Shown here piece after piece: positions 26,174-34,532 of a DNA stretch of 64,000 nucleotides. Each line of letters opens with the position of its first letter. The stretch's first letter is position 1. The position numbers were made by a program, and so were the translations under genes. Source of the stretch: Caldicellulosiruptor changbaiensis (GTDB taxonomy: Bacteria; Bacillota; Thermoanaerobacteria; Caldicellulosiruptorales; Caldicellulosiruptoraceae). The stretch is taken from assembly GCF_003999255.1 (NCBI RefSeq), contig NZ_CP034791.1, forward strand, positions 1,404,501-1,468,500. Direction: 5' to 3'. The notes beneath the pieces were generated by a model. It saw nothing but the letters and a program-made list of their open reading frames with translations. It did no database searches and was not told where the DNA came from.

Positions 26174-27913
26174 TTAATACAATGGTCTCCTCTTATAATG
26201 TGTATGAAGTATATGATGCGCCTTTTCACTATTTGGATGTCCTAAGAATTCTTCATATAGCTTTTTGATTGTTGGATTTTCATGAGACTTTCTTATTGGC
26301 AGTGACCTATCCTCGTCATATATAGCACTTGCTCTGAGCTTTGCAACATCTACTTTTTCTCTTACCTTTGCTGGGACAATTGGCTGGCCACCGCCCATTA
26401 TACAACCACCAGGACATGCCATGATTTCAATAAAGTGATATTCCTTTTCACCATTCTTAACCATCTCAAGCAGTTTCTTTGCATTAGCAAGCCCATGTGC
26501 AACTGCAGCCTTTATCTTCATTGTACCAACATCAATTTCTGCCTCTCTTATTCCTTCTAAACCACGAACCTGTGTAATTTCTACATTTTCAAGTGGCTTC
26601 CCTGTCAAAATCTCGTATACTGTTCTAAGTGCTGCTTCCATTACACCACCTGTTGTGCCAAAAATGACACCTGCACCTGTTGCATCACCCATTGGGTCGT
26701 CAAAATGATTGTCTGGCAGGTTAACAAAATCTATTCCTGCTTCCTTTATCATCCGGGCAAGTTCTCTTGTTGTCAGCACAGCATCTACATCAGGATATCC
26801 ACTTGCTGCAAGCTCTTCTCTTTGCGCTTCAAACTTTTTGGCTGTGCATGGCATTATGGAGACTACAAACATGTTAGCAGGATCAATTCCCATCTTCTGC
26901 GCATAGTATGTCTTCAAAATTGCTCCAAACATCTCATGTGGAGATTTGCAAGTTGATAAATTGTCTAAGAATTCTGGGAAGTAGTGTTCACAGAATTTTA
27001 TCCATCCGGGTGAGCATGAAGTAATAAGCGGAAGCTTCCCACCATTTTTGATTCTATTTATAAGCTCTGAGCCTTCTTCCATGATTGTAAGGTCTGCACC
27101 TGTGTCTGTGTCAAATACCTTGTCAAATCCAAGCATCTTAAGAGCTGTTACCATCTTACCTGTCACACGGGTCCCAATCGGAAGACCAAATTCCTCACCA
27201 AGCGCAACTCTTACAGCTGGTGCTGTTTGAACAACAACATATTTGTTCTTATCAGCCAAAGCCTTCCATACAATATCAGTAGAATCCTTTTCACGAAGTG
27301 CCCCGACAGGGCATGCTTGAATACACTGACCACACATTGTACATGCAACATCATTCAAACTTCTATCAAATGCTGTTGAGACAACTGTTCTAAAACCTCT
27401 ATAGTTTGCATTTATAACACCAACTTCTTGGACATTTCTACATACATTAATACATCTTTTGCAAAGTACACACTTGTTCGGGTCTCTAACAATTGAAGGA
27501 GAAAAGTCATCAAGAGGCCGTCTTATATTTTCACCTTCATATCTTATCTGCTTGACATTCAAATCTTCAGCAAGTTTTTGAAGTTCACAATTACCACTTC
27601 TGACGCATGTTAAGCAGTTTCTGTCGTGGTTGGACAAAATCAGCTCAAGGTTAACCTTTCTTGCTCTTCTTACTCTTTCACTGTTTGTGATAACTTCCAT
27701 ACCTTCTGACACAGGATAAACACAAGCTGCTTGCAAGCTCCTTGCACCTTTTACTTCAACAACACACATCCTACAAGCGCCAATCTCATTTATACCTTTT
27801 AAGTAACAAAGGGTTGGAATTTCAACTCCTGCTTCACGTGCTGCCTGCAGAACAGTGTAGTCCTTTGGTACCTGAAGTTTCTTGCCATCTATTGTTATAT
27901 TCACCATCTCCAT
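26174..27913 (-). CDS. hydA: NAD-linked [FeFe] hydrogenase, catalytic subunit (HydA/HndD type)
   Basis: A 579-residue cytoplasmic hydrogenase subunit. In order it has a [2Fe-2S] domain (CYLKGINEIGACRMCVVEV), a His-ligated cluster region (HDRNCLTCVRSGNCELQ), two [4Fe-4S] motifs (CVLCKRCINVCR, CTMCGQCIQACP), then the H-cluster domain. The three H-cluster signatures read TSCSPGW, MPCTAKK and MACPGGCIMGGG. A short C-terminal small-subunit segment ends the chain. With nuoF and nuoE products it forms a bifurcating or NAD(P)H-dependent trimeric hydrogenase. The ATG at 27913 has AAGGAGGG eight bases upstream. Confidence 0.95.
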   Translation of the reverse strand: MEMVNITIDGKKLQVPKDYTVLQAAREAGVEIPTLCYLKGINEIGACRMCVVEVKGARSLQAACVYPVSEGMEVITNSERVRRARKVNLELILSNHDRNCLTCVRSGNCELQKLAEDLNVKQIRYEGENIRRPLDDFSPSIVRDPNKCVLCKRCINVCRNVQEVGVINANYRGFRTVVSTAFDRSLNDVACTMCGQCIQACPVGALREKDSTDIVWKALADKNKYVVVQTAPAVRVALGEEFGLPIGTRVTGKMVTALKMLGFDKVFDTDTGADLTIMEEGSELINRIKNGGKLPLITSCSPGWIKFCEHYFPEFLDNLSTCKSPHEMFGAILKTYYAQKMGIDPANMFVVSIMPCTAKKFEAQREELAASGYPDVDAVLTTRELARMIKEAGIDFVNLPDNHFDDPMGDATGAGVIFGTTGGVMEAALRTVYEILTGKPLENVEITQVRGLEGIREAEIDVGTMKIKAAVAHGLANAKKLLEMVKNGEKEYHFIEIMACPGGCIMGGGQPIVPAKVREKVDVAKLRASAIYDEDRSLPIRKSHENPTIKKLYEEFLGHPNSEKAHHILHTHYKRRPLY

Positions 27914-27930
27914 TTGTTGTACCCTCCTTC

Positions 27931-29727
27931 TTAAGCCTTCTTAGAGATTGCTTTGAATGGACATTTTTCTATACATACTCCACACTTAATACATTTTGTC
28001 TGGTCAATCTCAAACGGCTTCTTAATTTGACCAGTTATAGCATTTGCAGGACAGTTCTTAGCACAGATACCACAGCCTTTGCAAAGATCTTTGTCAATTA
28101 CAATTCTCAAAAGTGCCTTACATGCCCCTGCCGGACATCTCTTTTCTTTGACATGTGCTTCATATTCATCTCTGAAGTATCTTAGTGTACTCAAAACTGG
28201 GTTTGGCGCTGTCTGACCAAGTCCACAAAGAGCGCTGTCCTTAATTGAATATGCAAGCTCTTCTAACTTCTCTAAATCCTCTTCTGTCCCGTTTCCACTT
28301 GTAATCTTTTGCAGTATCTCAAGCATTCTTCTTGTTCCTATTCTACATGGCGGACACTTTCCACATGACTCATCAACTGTGAACTCTAAGAAGAACTTTG
28401 CTATATCAACCATACATGTATCTTCATCCATTACAATCATGCCACCAGAACCCATCATTGTCCCAAGCGCTGTGAGTGAGTCAAAGTCAATAGGCGTGTC
28501 CATTAAAGATGCAGGAATACATCCACCAGATGGTCCACCTGTCTGAACAGCTTTGAACTTCTTACCACCTGGTATTCCACCGCCAATGTCTTCGACTATC
28601 TCTCTTACAGTTGTCCCCATTGGAACTTCAATAAGCCCTGTGTTGTTAACCTTTCCAACAAGTGCAAATACTTTGGTACCCTTGCTCTTTTCTGTTCCGA
28701 TTGATGCAAACCACTCTGGTCCTTTGAGGATTATAACAGGAATATTTGCATACGTCTCAACATTGTTCAAAAGTGTTGGTTTGCTCCAAAGTCCCTTTAC
28801 TGCTGGGAATGGTGGTCTTGGTCTTGGCTCTCCACGATGACCTTCAATTGATGTCATTAAAGCTGTCTCCTCACCGCAAACAAATGCACCAGCACCAAGT
28901 CTTATCTCTATATCAAATTCAAAGTCTGTTCCCAAAATATTCTTGCCCAGAAGCCCATACTCTCTTGCCTGGTTTATCGCAATCTCAAGTCTCTTGACAG
29001 CCAGCGGATACTCAGCCCTGACGTAAACATAGCCTTGTTTTGAGCCAATTGCATAACCAGCAATTGCCATAGCCTCAATAACAGAATGTGGGTCACCCTC
29101 TAAGATGCTTCTATCCATGTACGCACCAGGGTCACCTTCGTCAGCATTGCAGACAACATACTTGACATCACCTGGTGCTTTTGCTGCAAATTCCCATTTC
29201 AAACCTGTTGGGAATCCACCGCCACCTCTTCCTCTCAAGCCCGACCTTTTTACCCAGTCAATTACCTGCTCTGGAGTCATCTCTGTCAAGACCTTTGCTA
29301 AAGCTTTGTATCCGTCGTATGCTATATACTCTTCAATGTTTTCTGGATTTATAACACCGCAGTTTCTAAGAGCAATTCGCATCTGTTTTTTGTAGAACTT
29401 GACTTCATTTAAGGACTTTATCTGGCCTTCTTCAAGTGACTCTTTATACAAAAGCCTTTTTACTATTCTTCCTTTTAAAAGATGTTCTTCCACAATCTCT
29501 TTTACATCAGAGTCTGCAACCTTACTATAGAATGCACCTTCGGGATAGACAATGACAATCGGACCTTCTGCACAAAGTCCAAAACATCCTGTACGAATTA
29601 CTTGAACCTCGTCTTTTAAATTGAAGTTTTCTATCTCTTTCAAAAAAGCGTCATATATCTTGTCTGACCCGCCTGATGTACAACCTGTCCCACCACATAC
29701 AAGAACATGTGCTCTATATAATGGCAT
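27931..29727 (-). CDS. NADH-binding hydrogenase subunit (HydB/HndC, NuoF-like)
   Basis: A 598-residue protein in four parts. An N-terminal thioredoxin-like [2Fe-2S] domain (about 1-90; GGTGCTSGG, TGCFGLCAEGP) is followed by the NuoF flavin and NADH domain (RGRGGGGFPTGLKWEF, CNADEGDPGAYMDR, GAGAYVCGEE-like GAGAFVCGEETAL). A [4Fe-4S] domain (CGKCPPCRIGTRRM) and two C-terminal ferredoxin-type clusters (CKGCGICAKNCP, CIKCGVCIEKCP) complete it. It transfers electrons between NADH, flavin and the hydrogenase. It ends 18 bases before hydA. Confidence 0.95.
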   Translation of the reverse strand: MPLYRAHVLVCGGTGCTSGGSDKIYDAFLKEIENFNLKDEVQVIRTGCFGLCAEGPIVIVYPEGAFYSKVADSDVKEIVEEHLLKGRIVKRLLYKESLEEGQIKSLNEVKFYKKQMRIALRNCGVINPENIEEYIAYDGYKALAKVLTEMTPEQVIDWVKRSGLRGRGGGGFPTGLKWEFAAKAPGDVKYVVCNADEGDPGAYMDRSILEGDPHSVIEAMAIAGYAIGSKQGYVYVRAEYPLAVKRLEIAINQAREYGLLGKNILGTDFEFDIEIRLGAGAFVCGEETALMTSIEGHRGEPRPRPPFPAVKGLWSKPTLLNNVETYANIPVIILKGPEWFASIGTEKSKGTKVFALVGKVNNTGLIEVPMGTTVREIVEDIGGGIPGGKKFKAVQTGGPSGGCIPASLMDTPIDFDSLTALGTMMGSGGMIVMDEDTCMVDIAKFFLEFTVDESCGKCPPCRIGTRRMLEILQKITSGNGTEEDLEKLEELAYSIKDSALCGLGQTAPNPVLSTLRYFRDEYEAHVKEKRCPAGACKALLRIVIDKDLCKGCGICAKNCPANAITGQIKKPFEIDQTKCIKCGVCIEKCPFKAISKKA

Positions 29728-29744
29728 TATAGCTTACCTCCCTT

Positions 29745-30134
29745 TTATTTGTTTGCTTCTTTATTTTCTTCATAGCCAATTGTGTATTCATATACTGGCT
29801 TTCCATTCACAATATGCTCAGCAACAACTTTTGAAACTTTTTCAGGTGTCATTTTTACATATGTTACCTTCTCTTTGTTTGGCTCATATACTTCTACAAT
29901 TGGCTCATATTTGCAAAGACCTATACAGCCCGTCTGAACAACTGTTACATTCTTAAGATTTCTTTTTTGAATCTCCTCAACAAACTTTAGCATAACAGGT
30001 CTTGCACCTGCTGCTATCCCACATGTTGCCATACCAACTACTATTCTGATTCCCTCTCCTTGCTGTTTTCTAAATTCGAGCTCTTCCAATGCCTTTTTTC
30101 TTATCTCTTCAAGCTCCTGAATAGACTTAATCAT
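29745..30134 (-). CDS. HndB-like thioredoxin-fold iron-sulfur protein
   Basis: A 129-residue protein beginning MIKSIQELEEIRKKALEEL. A thioredoxin-like [2Fe-2S] ferredoxin fold follows, with VVGMATCGIAAGARPV and TGCIGLCKYEPIVEV. Only three cysteines are visible (C38, C70, C74). A fourth ligand expected for a NuoE-type cluster is a glycine or alanine here. The ATG at 30134 has GGAGGTG upstream and overlaps the preceding gene by eight bases; the longer reading frame back to 30239 is an artefact of overlap. Desulfovibrio-type HndB proteins sit in the same operon position. Confidence 0.88.
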   Translation of the reverse strand: MIKSIQELEEIRKKALEELEFRKQQGEGIRIVVGMATCGIAAGARPVMLKFVEEIQKRNLKNVTVVQTGCIGLCKYEPIVEVYEPNKEKVTYVKMTPEKVSKVVAEHIVNGKPVYEYTIGYEENKEANK

Positions 30135-30687
30135 TGAAATTCGCACCTCCAAATAAATTTGATAACCCTCTTGAAAGCTCTTCCTTAATAAACTCTTGTA
30201 CACTTGGCAAATTGAGAGGTACACCTTCCCCAAGAGCACTTTTTAGCTTATTTGTATCAAAAACAAACTCTTTTTTGTCGATTCTGTGCACATAAACAAA
30301 ATCCACATCCGGTGTACCACATACTAAAAGGAGTAGTGTATCAACAATATTCCCAATCGGTGGCCTGTCAATATGCGAATGCTGCAGCTTAATTTTTACC
30401 TTTGTGCCATTTTCAGATGAGTCAATAATAAGCTTTCCATTACAGTCTTTTGCAAGCTGTGAGGCAAGTGCCAAACCAAGTCCTACCTTTCTTGTTTTCC
30501 TTGTAGTATAAAAAGGATTTGTCACCTCATTTATTAACTCTTTTGGTATACCTCTCCCATTGTCCTCAATTGAGATTAAAAATATGTCATTTTCTAAATC
30601 TTCAACAATCTCAATCTTGACAAACGTTGCCCCAGCCTCAATTGAATTTTGCACAAGGTCAAGGATATAAAGTGAAAGTTCGTTCAA
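30127..30687 (-). CDS. GHKL-type ATP-binding protein (histidine-kinase-like ATPase domain)
   Basis: A 186-residue protein with a GHKL ATPase domain and no histidine-phosphotransfer helix or sensor. The N box is LVQNSIEAGA, the G1 box DNGRGIP, and the F/G2 region is NPFYTTRKTRKVGLGLALA. A C-terminal extension of about 80 residues, with VDTLLLLVCGTPDVDFVYVH, follows. The TTG at 30687 gives the family-typical MNELSLYILDLVQNS start, with AGGGTGA just upstream; a GTG three codons earlier is an alternative. It is an unexplained but recurring part of hydrogenase operons. Confidence 0.87.
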   Translation of the reverse strand: MNELSLYILDLVQNSIEAGATFVKIEIVEDLENDIFLISIEDNGRGIPKELINEVTNPFYTTRKTRKVGLGLALASQLAKDCNGKLIIDSSENGTKVKIKLQHSHIDRPPIGNIVDTLLLLVCGTPDVDFVYVHRIDKKEFVFDTNKLKSALGEGVPLNLPSVQEFIKEELSRGLSNLFGGANFND

Positions 30688-30732
30688 CCAAATCACCCTA
30701 TTTTATTCTTATCACACAGACAGTTTGTTAAG

Positions 30733-31215
30733 TTAATATCTTGACAAGATATTTTCAATATCTTCAGGTGCTAATTTTCCATAGACAGTGTTATCAATTA
30801 CAACAACAGGTGCAAGTCCACAAGCTCCTAAGCATCTTGTTGCTTCAATAGAGAATTTCCCATCTTCAGTTGTGCCACCAACGTCAATCTTTAAAAGCTC
30901 TTTTAATTTATCCAAAATTTTATCTGCACCTTTTACATAGCAAGCAGTTCCCATGCACACACTAATCTTGTGGTCACCTGTTGGTTTTAATGTAAACCTG
31001 GTATAAAATGTTGCAACCCCATAAACCTCTGCCATTGGAATGTTCAGACCCTCTGCAATTCTCTTTTGTACCTCGTATGGCAAGTATCCAAATAGTTCTT
31101 GTGCCTCATGCAAAACAGGAATTAGAGCACCTCTTCTTGATTTGTTTTTTTCAATAATCTCATCAAGTTTTTTGAAGTTTTCCTCGGTCAGATTTTTGCC
31201 TTGGCAACAAGACAT
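30733..31215 (-). CDS. NuoE-like hydrogenase subunit (HydC/HndA type)
   Basis: A 160-residue [2Fe-2S] protein of the 24-kDa NADH dehydrogenase type. The helical N-terminus reads RGALIPVLHEAQELFGYLP, with VYGVATFYTRF in the middle. Cluster cysteines are in SVCMGTACYVKGA and ATRCLGACGLAPV. It is the first gene of the catalytic operon, behind a leader with a Rex-type palindrome. It works with the NuoF-like and HydA subunits in reversible H2 production from NADH and ferredoxin. Confidence 0.94.
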   Translation of the reverse strand: MSCCQGKNLTEENFKKLDEIIEKNKSRRGALIPVLHEAQELFGYLPYEVQKRIAEGLNIPMAEVYGVATFYTRFTLKPTGDHKISVCMGTACYVKGADKILDKLKELLKIDVGGTTEDGKFSIEATRCLGACGLAPVVVIDNTVYGKLAPEDIENILSRY

Positions 31216-31235: not shown

Positions 31236-31253
31236 TTGTTAGAAATTTAACAT
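31236..31253. promoter_or_regulatory. Rex-type operator upstream of the hydrogenase operon
   Basis: The 18-base sequence TTGTTAGAAATTTAACAT has half-sites TTGTTA and TAACAT with a six-base spacer. It differs at one position from the Rex redox-sensor consensus TTGTTA-N6-TAACAA. It lies 21 bases upstream of the nuoE start codon and downstream of a likely promoter. Rex releases DNA when the NADH/NAD ratio rises, so this fits control of an NADH-oxidising hydrogenase. Assignment is by motif only; the rex gene is not in the window. Confidence 0.7.
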
Positions 31254-31323: not shown

Positions 31324-32019
31324 TTACTTGAAAAATATTGTATACAGTATATCACTTTCAATAAAAAACTCCTTTTCGTTAATATCCCATAGATGATGTG
31401 CATCAGAAGAGTGTAAAAAAATGTACCTGCTATCTTTGGGCAAAAGATTTGTAAATTCAAATTCATTGACTTTTGAAACTTCTAAAAGAGAAACATCTTT
31501 TAGTTCATCTGGTAATGTTCCCAGCCTTCCAATTATTCCATAGGATTGTCTATTGATATGAGCTGGAACAAAAATCATATTGTAAAACTTTGAAATTTCA
31601 TAAACTTGAAATATACTTAAATTCAGTGGTTGGAGCAGAAGTTTTTTATAGCTTCCGACAATATTGTCTTCCTTGTCCACTAAGAACTGATTTCCATATA
31701 TATCCTCTCTCAAGGCTATGTTTGGAAGGTTTTCTTCAATAATCTCTTGAAACTCTTCCACTACAGAGAAATCTTTGAAATATAAAAGAACATGGACTTC
31801 TTCACAAGTTTCTATCTCAACACCTGGGATAAATAAAATCCCAAGATGTTTTGCAACCTCTAAGAACTCTTTCAAATTCAATGTAGAATTATGGTCTGTT
31901 ATGGAAATTACATTTAGTCCCTTTATCTTTGCCATGTTTATTATATTATTTGGGGTCATGTCATTGTCAGCACAAGGTGAGAGCGCAGAGTGAATGTGCA
32001 GGTCATAATAGAGTTTCAT
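31324..32019 (-). CDS. PHP-domain metal-dependent hydrolase-like protein
   Basis: A 231-residue PHP (polymerase and histidinol phosphatase) family protein. The metal-site motifs are visible: YYDLHIHSALSPCADND, SITDHNSTLN, FIPGVEIETCEEVHVLLYF, and near the end FLHSSDAHHLWDI. Related proteins include phosphatases and phosphodiesterases. Its 5' end overlaps the DRTGG gene by 17 bases. It lies just upstream of the catalytic hydrogenase operon, so a role in that system is suggested but not shown. Confidence 0.87.
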   Translation of the reverse strand: MKLYYDLHIHSALSPCADNDMTPNNIINMAKIKGLNVISITDHNSTLNLKEFLEVAKHLGILFIPGVEIETCEEVHVLLYFKDFSVVEEFQEIIEENLPNIALREDIYGNQFLVDKEDNIVGSYKKLLLQPLNLSIFQVYEISKFYNMIFVPAHINRQSYGIIGRLGTLPDELKDVSLLEVSKVNEFEFTNLLPKDSRYIFLHSSDAHHLWDINEKEFFIESDILYTIFFK

Positions 32020-32356
32020 TTTGACCTTCCTTCTCTTGAAGAATCAGTAATTTTGCGGTCTCAAAATGAGAAAGCTCGGTTGTGAAAATAGGAATATTTT
32101 CCTGTTTAGATTTTTGAAGCATATTGGCATCTGGCTTTACACCTTCTGTTAATATGATAGCCTTCACATCTCTCAAAGTTGCCACTGCAATGACATTTAT
32201 GTTGTTCTGAATTGTTATCCAGATACTGCGATCTTTGATATGTGAAATTGCAAAGCTCAAAACATCTCCAATATACACATTTTCGTACACATCATCATCT
32301 CTAATAACATCATTCACAAGGTTAAAATATTTTCTTAGGTGCGCAACTCTTGGCAT
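32003..32356 (-). CDS. DRTGG-domain protein (second copy)
   Basis: A 117-residue protein consistent with a stand-alone DRTGG domain: VYIGDVLSFAISHIKDRSIWITIQ, AVATLRDVKAIILTEGVKPDANMLQKS and IPIFTTELSHFETAKLL. DRTGG domains are found as regulatory modules in phosphotransacetylases and CBS proteins. The ATG follows the stop codon of the H-cluster gene directly (TAAATG), which implies coupled translation, and its 3' end overlaps the PHP gene. Confidence 0.82.
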   Translation of the reverse strand: MPRVAHLRKYFNLVNDVIRDDDVYENVYIGDVLSFAISHIKDRSIWITIQNNINVIAVATLRDVKAIILTEGVKPDANMLQKSKQENIPIFTTELSHFETAKLLILQEKEGQNETLL

Positions 32357-33691
32357 TTATTCTTCATCCCTTTCAAGTGATGGTGGTAGTTTATTTGAAA
32401 GCTCAACCATTTTATTTGCAAGCTCTTTAATATTTTCACGAAGGATAAAGATACAATCTGTATCGTTTGCCAAACCTCTGACTATGTCCTCTGCGAGGGT
32501 TTTGCATGTTGGAGAACCACAGGCACCACAATCCAAACCAGGCAAAATCTTTAATATCTCATTTACCCTCTCATACTTTTTCATAGCCTCTTCTATATCA
32601 GAATCAAGCTCTAATACAGGGTTTGCCTCCAATTCTTTTCTAAACAAAAGGTCTTCCATCTTTATTCCAAGGTCATTGACAATTTTTCGAGTATTTTCTT
32701 CTAATATTTGGGCTTTGTCTGCAAGTTTAGAAGACCACTTTTTGATTCTATTCTTAGCAACATACGGATTTTCTACCGTCAACGGTCCACCCACACAACC
32801 CCCACTGCATGCAAGTCCTTCAAAGTAAACAATATTATTCAGCCTTCCATTCTCAATCTCTTCCAAAACCTTTATAACATTATGAATCCCATCCACATTT
32901 ACATACTCATCAATTCCCAAGGCTAAACTCTCTCCACCAGATGCTGCCCATCCAATCCCTTTGCCGGATGAAATAGAAATAGGTTCTACATCATTCATAC
33001 TTTTCAACTTACTTCTAACAAGCCCATAAATATCCTTGATAGCAATTACTCCATCTACATATGACCTTTCAAACCCAAGTGGCAAGTTTACGTAAGTCAT
33101 CTTTGCTGCACAAGGTGAGATGAAAAAAGCACCTATTCTGTCTATCTCAATGCCTTTTTGCCTGTTTATTCTCTTTTTTGCGAGGTGGGCAGCAACCTCC
33201 ATTGGAGAAGCAAGTGGGAGGATATTATCAATCAAATCTGGGAATTTTGTCTGGATAAGCCTTACCACTGCTGGGCAGGCAGAAGAAATTATGGGTCTTT
33301 TATCTCTCTTTTTTGAAATAAACTCCTTTGTGAACTCTGTCACAATCTCTGCTGCTTTTGCCACTTCAAATATGTCGTCAAATCCTATTTCTAACAATGC
33401 ATGTAATAGTTTATTGATATCATCTGTTTCAAATTGAGCATAAAATGAGGGTGCTGGTAGAGCAACTTTATATTCGTATTTTTTTATATCATCTAAACTA
33501 TTTGTTACAGCATATTTTGCGTGATACGGGCATGTTCGTATACACTCACCACAGTCTATACATCTTTGATCGATAATTCTGGCTTTTGAACTTCTCACTC
33601 TTATTGCTTCTGTTGGACACTTTTTAATACAATTTGTACACCCTCTGCACTTCTCTCTGTCAAGCATTATCGAATGCAGATTAAAAGGCAT
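32357..33691 (-). CDS. H-cluster iron-sulfur protein, putative sensory [FeFe] hydrogenase
   Basis: A 444-residue protein. It begins with two [4Fe-4S] ferredoxin motifs (CRGCTNCIKKCP, CIDCGECIRTCP). A hydrogenase large-domain region with degenerate H-cluster signatures follows (SSACPAVVRL, SPCAAKM, LACSGGCVGGP), then a C-terminal four-cysteine domain (DCGACGSPTC and a later C). The proton-relay position of the first motif is alanine, as reported for the putative sensory hydrogenase HydS of Thermotoga. The ATG at 33691 with AGGAAG upstream is preferred over a GTG four codons earlier. It sits between an anti-sigma-type ATPase and a DRTGG gene. Confidence 0.87.
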   Translation of the reverse strand: MPFNLHSIMLDREKCRGCTNCIKKCPTEAIRVRSSKARIIDQRCIDCGECIRTCPYHAKYAVTNSLDDIKKYEYKVALPAPSFYAQFETDDINKLLHALLEIGFDDIFEVAKAAEIVTEFTKEFISKKRDKRPIISSACPAVVRLIQTKFPDLIDNILPLASPMEVAAHLAKKRINRQKGIEIDRIGAFFISPCAAKMTYVNLPLGFERSYVDGVIAIKDIYGLVRSKLKSMNDVEPISISSGKGIGWAASGGESLALGIDEYVNVDGIHNVIKVLEEIENGRLNNIVYFEGLACSGGCVGGPLTVENPYVAKNRIKKWSSKLADKAQILEENTRKIVNDLGIKMEDLLFRKELEANPVLELDSDIEEAMKKYERVNEILKILPGLDCGACGSPTCKTLAEDIVRGLANDTDCIFILRENIKELANKMVELSNKLPPSLERDEE

Positions 33692-33733
33692 TTTAAAATT
33701 CACTTCCTTAAAAGAATATTAAGATAATTTAAA

Positions 33734-34153
33734 TTATTTGTTGAACACGACCATATACACCCTTGTTCCAGTGCCTTTTTGGGACTCAATCTCAAAATGA
33801 TCAGAATATTTTTTCATATTAGGAAGACCCATACCCGCGCCAAATCCTAAGTTTCTTATTTCTTCAGGAGCTGTCGAGTACCCTTCCATCATTGCAAGTT
33901 CAATATTCTCTATTCCAGGGCCTCTGTCTTCAGCAATTATTTCAATCTTGTCTTTTGAGATGATGGCTTTCAAAACTCCACCTACAGAATGTATAACAAT
34001 ATTCATCTCTGCTTCGTATGAAATAATGGCAACCTTTTTCAAAATTTCAGGCTTAACTCCCAACTTTTTTAAAGCATCCTTAATCTTGCTTGAGGCCTCT
34101 CCAGCTAATACAAAATCTCCAGCTTTGATGTCAAATTCCATTGAAAGCAGCAT
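33734..34153 (-). CDS. Anti-sigma-factor-like GHKL ATPase (RsbW/SpoIIAB type)
   Basis: A 139-residue protein with a complete GHKL ATP-binding fold and little else. The N box is SYEAEMNIVIHS, the G1 region AEDRGPGIENIELAMMEGYS and the G2 region GFGAGMGLPNMKKYSD. Such proteins act as serine kinases of anti-anti-sigma factors or as partner switches. The ATG at 34153 follows the DRTGG stop codon by four bases and has AAAGGTG upstream; reading frames further upstream overlap the DRTGG gene. No sigma factor or STAS partner is encoded in the window. Confidence 0.87.
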   Translation of the reverse strand: MLLSMEFDIKAGDFVLAGEASSKIKDALKKLGVKPEILKKVAIISYEAEMNIVIHSVGGVLKAIISKDKIEIIAEDRGPGIENIELAMMEGYSTAPEEIRNLGFGAGMGLPNMKKYSDHFEIESQKGTGTRVYMVVFNK

Positions 34154-34157
34154 CTTT

Positions 34158-34508
34158 TCAGCACCTTTCTTTTCCCAACCCATTTTCATAGAGTATTCCA
34201 CATGCCTGAAACATTGGAAAGTCTGTAGAGTAAAGAGCTATGCATTTCTCTTTTGCCAACTTCAACATCTCTTCTGAGGGTTGCTTTCCACGAACAATTA
34301 TAACAGCCTTTATATCCATCATTTCAGCTGTACGAATAACCTGAGGATTGACAAGACCCGTAAGGAGAATTACCTTTTCCTTTACAAAGGCTAAAACATC
34401 ACTCATCAAATCAGAACCACAAGCATTCAAAAATTCTTCTTCAGAAAGCTCTTGAGGCTCAAAAAAAACCTTACATTTCAAGAGATCTTTTATTTTTGAT
34501 AATTTCAT
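34158..34508 (-). CDS. DRTGG-domain protein (first copy)
   Basis: A stand-alone DRTGG domain of 116 residues from the ATG at 34508 (MKLSKIKDLLKCKVFF); an ATG at 34526 would add six residues. Features are CGSDLMSDVLAFVKEKVILLTG, VIRTAEMMDIKAVIIVRGKQP and CIALYSTDFPMFQACGILY. It is the first gene of the accessory set, 24 bases after tlyA, and its end is four bases from the ATPase start. The pair of a DRTGG domain next to a GHKL ATPase is seen twice in spirit along this region. Confidence 0.82.
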   Translation of the reverse strand: MKLSKIKDLLKCKVFFEPQELSEEEFLNACGSDLMSDVLAFVKEKVILLTGLVNPQVIRTAEMMDIKAVIIVRGKQPSEEMLKLAKEKCIALYSTDFPMFQACGILYENGLGKERC

Positions 34509-34532
34509 AACTTTAAAAACCCCCATCCAACT

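Follow-up and report, generated by a model that had tools for sequence, protein, structure and literature searches.

We find that the open reading frame at positions 32357–33691 on the minus strand of the window, by which we mean the whole stretch of 64,000 nucleotides of Caldicellulosiruptor changbaiensis DNA analyzed here, probably encodes a typical group D (M2e) [FeFe]-hydrogenase (HydS), intact by its sequence and probably slow in activating H2. The gene stands in a conserved cassette with two DRTGG-domain proteins, a SpoIIAB/RsbW-like ATPase and a PHP-domain phosphoesterase, and natural fusions join the cassette's four-gene core (DRTGG1, HATP1, HydS and DRTGG2) pair by pair in related genomes. 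We think it reasonably likely that HydS feeds H2 (or ferredoxin-redox) information into a signaling complex formed with these neighbors and set beside genes of the bifurcating hydrogenase HydABC or of Rnf. Genes are transcribed in the order DRTGG1, HATP1, HydS, DRTGG2 and PHP, then the NuoE-HATP2-2Fe2S-HydB-HydA operon. The features of the cassette are as follows.

34158–34526, minus strand: DRTGG1, a stand-alone DRTGG-domain protein of 122 aa whose gene overlaps that of HATP1 (Pfam DRTGG 22.0 bits against a cut-off of 25.2 bits; assigned with the matches of its relatives and hhalign)
33734–34201, minus strand: HATP1, a SpoIIAB/RsbW-like GHKL ATPase of 155 aa and putative protein kinase (assigned from Pfam, motifs and the fold of a relative)
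32357–33691, minus strand: HydS, a probable group D (M2e) [FeFe]-hydrogenase of 444 aa from an ATG, or 448 aa from a GTG at 33703
33275–33283, minus strand: codons S141-A142-C143 of HydS (GTG numbering); A142 occupies the proton-relay position of group A, and C143 is the first cysteine ligand of the H-cluster
32003–32356, minus strand: DRTGG2, a stand-alone DRTGG-domain protein of 117 aa that begins right after the HydS stop codon (Pfam DRTGG 36.4 bits)
31324–32019, minus strand: PHP, a PHP-domain phosphoesterase of 231 aa whose start overlaps the end of DRTGG2 (Pfam PHP 43.2 bits)

The ATG at 33691, codon 5 of the GTG form, has an AAGGA-like stretch upstream at a plausible distance and is the likelier start of HydS than the GTG at 33703. 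Residue numbers below nevertheless count from the GTG; those of the ATG form are lower by 4. A Pfam scan resolves HydS into two N-terminal 4Fe-4S motifs, the Fe-hydrogenase large domain (130 bits to Fe_hyd_lg_C) and a C-terminal FeS domain with the cluster motif Cx2Cx4Cx16C. The three H-cluster motifs read SSA(142)C(143)PAV, SPC(198)AAKM and LAC(299)SGGC(303)VGG. An AlphaFold model built from 28 aligned sequences (mean pLDDT 91.0, pTM 0.88) matched [FeFe]-hydrogenases in the PDB with probability 1.00 and a best E of 2.6e-20; among the matches listed in a PDB sequence search, no solved chain is named group C or D. Six genomes of the same genus encode HydS at 80 to 82% identity.

Several features place HydS in group D: four ligand cysteines, two N-terminal 4Fe-4S motifs, the Cx2Cx4Cx16C motif, and a chain that stops 31 residues past the last cluster cysteine with no PAS domain found in the Pfam scan. 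Genes for a bifurcating hydrogenase (26174–31215) and a kinase-like protein (33734–34201) adjoin it. A group C (M2f) enzyme would carry PAS after the C-terminal cluster, and a group A enzyme would have the relay cysteine with the Glu279/Ser319 path, where HydS has Ala, Phe and Leu. In a tree, 106 group D sequences, the full set defined below, fell into a single clade apart from group A and three others, with a node support of 0.44 and with named group B and C references absent from the tree. A preliminary description of this DNA had compared the protein with HydS of Thermotoga, a group C enzyme; the closest match is group D. Its reading that PAS is missing agrees with our scan and with the way group D is set apart in print (PMC8163306).

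The same description reported alanine at the relay position, a reading that the minus-strand ORF bears out in all three motifs, and called the motifs degenerate. To place this alanine, we collected ORFs scoring >150 bits to the A1 profile from loci L001–L113 and the window; of 107 distinct sequences, L089|3370 was dropped as not group D, leaving 106. Loci L034–L113 are the best 80 of 545 confirmed places and were located with two peptide patterns from the N-terminal ferredoxin region, so that conservation of the N-terminal cysteines is partly by construction while the H-cluster columns are unaffected. In the 106 sequences, the relay column holds Ala 93 times, Ser 13 times and Cys never, and the ligands C143, C198, C299 and C303, like the four cysteines of the C-terminal cluster, are invariant (106/106). 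In 49 HydA (group A) proteins from the same loci, counted after removal of 31 HydS sequences that the HydA profile had also picked up, this column is Cys. Alanine also occupies the relay place (A131) in TmHydS of Thermotoga maritima (PMC10055695, 2023, excerpt), as the preliminary description had stated for Thermotoga HydS, and the sensory sequences of HydDB carry about 43% Ala and 17% Cys there (PMC10055695, excerpt). The A/S-only column, the invariant ligands and these published residues together indicate that the alanine is real and group-typical and is no sign of decay. "Degenerate" is therefore the wrong word: all four ligand cysteines are kept and the motif is the consensus of the group. 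The alanine-bearing H-cluster motif is already known, and HydS is a further group D member.

The proton path of HydS, as far as its residues tell, is replaced rather than lost, running via Glu258 and Glu295 with no cysteine. The path proposed for TamHydS of Thermoanaerobacter mathranii consists of E252, E289, S249 and D265; variants of E252 and E289 lost activity in both directions, and only group D is described as having the E252-type relay (PMC10407848, excerpt). The HydS of Thermoanaerobacter wiegelii (L035) has the expected residue at every TamHydS number checked, including A137, S191, S249, E252, D265, E289, L291, C379 and C404, so the TamHydS numbering is firmly mapped. At the corresponding places, the window HydS has A142, S196, S255, E258, D271, E295, L297 and C392. 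It thus combines a non-cysteine relay with the E252/E289/D265 path and a Ser at Met353 (S196), where group D has S/T. Of the 106 sequences, all have E295 and D271, 105 have E258, and 82 have S/T at 255. The alanine does not signify a broken path, as all four alternative relay residues (E258, E295, S255 and D271) are present; a relay cysteine elsewhere in the pocket was looked for and none was seen, the alternative relay being Glu. Cysteine put at the Ala position lowered TmHydS activity (40% for oxidation, 20% for production; PMC10055695, excerpt) and strongly cut the catalytic currents of TamHydS (PMC11803613, excerpt). Alanine alone therefore does not explain slowness.

Group D enzymes have been described as lacking PAS, as slow and, by hypothesis, as sensory, and TamHydS turns H2 over reversibly at low rates (PMC8163306). 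The low-turnover sensor role put forward in the preliminary description matches this published proposal. TamHydS and the window HydS are alike in domain order, absence of PAS, relay Ala, Ser at Met353, Leu at Met497, relay residues and Cx2Cx4Cx16C. TmHydS (group C, M2f), which is also slow, shares the relay Ala and a C-terminal 4Fe-4S cluster, but differs in having PAS and other residues at Met353 and Met497 (PMC8163306). The window HydS is 56% identical to its T. wiegelii orthologue, which is adjoined by DRTGG, HATPase, DRTGG and PHP genes (L035, 9218–12351). No AraC domain appears among the Pfam matches of those four proteins, so what the TamHydS paper (Land et al.) calls an "AraC regulator" is probably a DRTGG protein. 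A 2012 account (PMC3561251, excerpt) assigns Athe_1292 (C. bescii) and Csac_1857 (C. saccharolyticus) to D M2e and classes them as sensory because protein kinases and bifurcating hydrogenases lie near them. Both agree with the window HydS in class and in preceding the bifurcating operon, and they are very probably orthologues; the DRTGG/PHP cassette and the fusions are not described in the excerpt of that account.

The neighbors of HydS carry intact motifs. Although DRTGG1 itself scores below the Pfam cut-off, 24 of its 25 aligned relatives match DRTGG (PF07085) at E<=0.001, 17 of the 20 aligned relatives of DRTGG2 match the family, and hhalign relates the two proteins to each other (99.5%). 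Each has invariant Ser/Thr positions, S42 and T56 in DRTGG1 and S34 and T48 in DRTGG2. HATP1 exceeds the Pfam cut-offs for GHKL ATPases (PF13581/PF02518) and has the Glu/Asn box and the glycine boxes; its motifs E63-x3-N67, D92-x-G94-x-G96 and G119FGAGMG125 are almost invariant in 79 sequences including that of the window. No histidine phosphoacceptor domain was found in its 155 aa. Its best NCBIfam match is TIGR01925 (SpoIIAB, anti-sigma F), at 57.6 bits against a cut-off of 135 bits, and its best PDB sequence match is likewise SpoIIAB. In PHP, residues H8, H10, D42, H43, E68, H76, H154, D206 and H208, which we take to be a metal-ligand-type set, are 100% conserved in 70 sequences including that of the window.

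This arrangement is widely kept. Profiles made from the window proteins were run over the best 80 of the 545 loci (L034–L113) and recovered HATP1 at 78, the upstream DRTGG at 73, the downstream DRTGG at 73, PHP at 69 and all five genes at 67; HydB lies within the fetched stretch at 49 of these 80. Among the 13 incomplete cassettes, six touch contig ends (L036, L038, L056, L067, L093 and L112), and L081 was counted among those with no upstream DRTGG even though DRTGG1 and HATP1 are present. At three further loci (L042, L058 and L066), HATP1-HydS stands with neither DRTGG nor PHP, and at L106 HydS lacks all four partners; from these reduced cassettes, the full partner set is not obligatory. In L042 (9484–13308, plus strand), the HATP1-HydS pair is followed by a group C-like hydrogenase of 638 aa with a relay Pro and, by eye, an MCP-like tail. 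Separately, L146 and L147 contain DRTGG-DRTGG-PHP-HATP2 clusters without HATP1 or HydS.

Natural fusions are the strongest evidence that HydS and its partners may form a physical complex. DRTGG1 and HATP1 share one ORF in 9 of 132 distinct HATP1 domains (L022, L023, L024, L025, L027, L077, L108, L158 and L163). HATP1 and HydS do so in two, L150 (601 aa) and L151 (635 aa); both loci were fetched for their long open frames, so this 2/132 is not a random estimate. Of 125 distinct HydS ORFs, two also encode DRTGG2, one in L026 (579 aa) and one in L030 (574 aa). Between them, the three fusion types cover all neighboring pairs of the four-gene core. Pfam domains were run for the fusions of L026, L077 and L150. 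The fusions are few, and the HydS-containing types each come from one family-level group (L026/L030 from f36, L150/L151 from f108), with two genera represented in either case. In the HydS+DRTGG2 fusion, DRTGG2 follows the C-terminal cluster, the spot where group C enzymes bear PAS. Folds in a model of a DRTGG1+HATP1 fusion match SpoIIAB/RsbW and DRTGG structures; with a pTM of 0.53 and a pLDDT <50 at residues 210–258, the single folds are usable and the relative placement of the domains is uncertain. The earlier suggestion that the signal may pass to the ATPase or DRTGG partners gains substantial support from all three fusion types.

HATP1 modules also occur without HydS. Loci L130–L149 and L159–L161 were chosen mainly because no HydS lies near HATP1 or PHP and are no random draw. 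A CBS pair is fused before the HATP1 ATPase in 8 of 14 cases without HydS nearby (L130–L135, L138 and L143) versus 2 of 118 beside HydS (L019 and L020), a Fisher comparison that ignores the relatedness of the sequences; Pfam CBS domains were found on four of the eight proteins, and the contig of L148, one of the 14, stops where HydS would lie, so that HydS may be off contig. Strict exclusivity of CBS and HydS was considered and dropped, as HATP1 of L019 and L020 carries CBS material beside HydS. CBS domains usually read nucleotides. In L131 and L132, the DRTGG-HATPase module directly precedes Rnf-like genes, with an RnfC Pfam match on L132, and in L154 HATP1-HydS-DRTGG2 stands before RnfC. Just upstream of the module in L143 is a Rex-like gene, whose domain pair we take to be that of Rex. 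These loci suggest one kinase-like module with exchangeable inputs that may be attached to different redox complexes. As a separate observation, HATP2 comes after PHP in the HydS-less modules of L130, L133–L135 and L138. CBS and DRTGG also occur together in the regulatory region of family II pyrophosphatase, whose structure 3l2b the DRTGG fold matches, but as parts of a single enzyme, unlike the separate subunits grouped around a GHKL ATPase here.

Downstream of the cassette lies the hydrogenase operon.

31236–31253, plus strand: Rex-like palindrome just upstream of the operon start (NuoE gene), the only match with 1 mismatch in the window
30733–31215, minus strand: NuoE/HydC-like thioredoxin-like [2Fe-2S] subunit, at the operon start (Pfam-type scan)
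30127–30696, minus strand: HATP2, a second stand-alone GHKL ATPase, within the operon
29745–30239, minus strand: small 2Fe-2S thioredoxin-like ferredoxin
27931–29727, minus strand: HydB (NuoF-like) subunit of the electron-bifurcating hydrogenase
26174–27913, minus strand: HydA, the catalytic group A hydrogenase, with motif TSCSPGW and the relay Cys present

The Rex-like pattern is not enriched across the window (15 found versus 11.5 expected), and only the site at the operon start was used; in C. bescii, a Rex site lies 39 bp upstream of the hyd operon at Athe_1295 (PMC6391272, excerpt). Promoter and terminator matches were no commoner than in shuffled sequence and were left aside. The HydA motif TSCSPGW has Ser where CpI has Cys next to proline, presumably the cluster ligand Cys300; since this Ser is found in 49/49 HydA of these loci and in the solved HydA1 chain 7q4v, it is a known feature. 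The genome also encodes a third [FeFe]-hydrogenase of 626 aa (G000:C1, about 2430948; L003, 514–2394, minus strand) with a relay Pro (QPCPAV) and a C-terminal FeS motif; it carries a Pfam MCPsignal chemotaxis domain, which fits the HydDB class C2 "chemotactic."

Taken with the published behavior of TamHydS, the cassette is consistent with the following scheme. H2 or reduced ferredoxin would reduce the H-cluster and an N-terminal cluster, and reduction would change the conformation of HydS; in TamHydS, exposure to H2 alters the secondary structure, as restated in the excerpt of PMC13104023. From HydS the change would pass to HATP1 and DRTGG2, which would sit on its surface, and HATP1 would in turn contact DRTGG1. 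HATP1, a SpoIIAB/RsbW-type kinase by fold and motifs, may then phosphorylate a Ser/Thr of a partner, most simply DRTGG. DRTGG is our first guess for the substrate because no STAS or sigma gene is linked to the cassette, the genome's own STAS-HATPase pair is separate and the DRTGG Ser/Thr positions are invariant. PHP would hydrolyze a phosphoester and is a candidate output or reset enzyme, and the module as a whole may tune the expression or activity of the adjoining HydABC, or of Rnf in some relatives.

Other readings fit parts of these data. HydS might use its N-terminal clusters to sense ferredoxin redox poise instead of H2, with the H-cluster merely equilibrating. This is possible but unlikely; under H2, an N-terminal cluster of TamHydS is reduced while the C-terminal cluster stays oxidized (PMC13104023, excerpt), and the sibling modules with CBS, some of them beside Rnf, point to a general redox/energy module, but the H-cluster site and relay are clearly constrained and a pure ferredoxin sensor would not need them.

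We regard as improbable the view that HydS is a slow auxiliary catalyst, for H2 uptake or as a valve, of the bifurcating hydrogenase, its neighbors being unrelated or acting on the operon on their own. The reversible turnover of TamHydS and the presence of HydB at 49 of the best 80 loci would suit such a role, but the low published rates (PMC8163306) speak against it, and fusion of HydS to a kinase-like ATPase and to DRTGG2 is hard to explain on that account.

About equally doubtful is a classical partner switch, in which HATP1 would be an anti-sigma/anti-anti-sigma kinase and HydS would free a sigma factor at high H2. HATP1 resembles SpoIIAB/RsbW in its GHKL fold (that of a relative matches both), its Glu-x3-Asn box and its glycine boxes, besides the anti-sigma F and PDB matches given above. 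Its score nevertheless falls well short of the SpoIIAB cut-off, STAS and sigma partners are missing from the cassette, and HATP1 relatives are fused to DRTGG, CBS or HydS. A search of the genome for STAS, SpoIIE, DRTGG and HATPase_c_2 found sigma partner-switch genes not linked to the cassette: the genome has two STAS genes, neither of them close to the window, with a separate STAS-HATPase pair at 1629203–1629957. That HydS is a degenerate, dying hydrogenase, as the replaced group A residues (Cys, Glu279 and Ser319) might suggest, is scarcely credible and was rejected on conservation across the 106 group D sequences, with the ligand cysteines invariant and E258, E295 and D271 kept in 105 to 106 of them, TamHydS active (PMC8163306) and cysteine restoration no help in TmHydS or TamHydS.

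The reading of HydS as the input of a signaling complex also bears on the wider literature. The excerpt of a 2026 study of TamHydS calls the identification of interaction partners critical and still needed (PMC13104023). Our search of the open-access PubMed Central literature, a scope outside which most subscription papers lie, found no description of the DRTGG1-HATPase-HydS-DRTGG2-PHP cassette among the matches listed; one paper there, a Desulfovibrio mutant study, mentions both DRTGG and hydrogenase. The relay motif itself is known, and it is the partners and their natural fusions that go beyond the searched literature. Three candidate partners of group D HydS emerge from these fusions, and the single-chain forms (HATPase-HydS of about 600 aa, HydS-DRTGG of about 575 aa) suit direct measurement of H2-dependent ATP binding or phosphotransfer. 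More tentatively, and with somewhat less than even confidence, we propose that group D hydrogenases in general are the H2-reading subunit of a distinct DRTGG1-HATPase-HydS-DRTGG2 complex with PHP, in which the H-cluster would directly gate a SpoIIAB-type kinase, and that the same module, with a CBS input or beside Rnf, may serve anaerobic Firmicutes generally as a plug-in redox/energy switch. If true, a metal-hydride enzyme would here reach a kinase with neither a PAS domain nor a two-component system in between.
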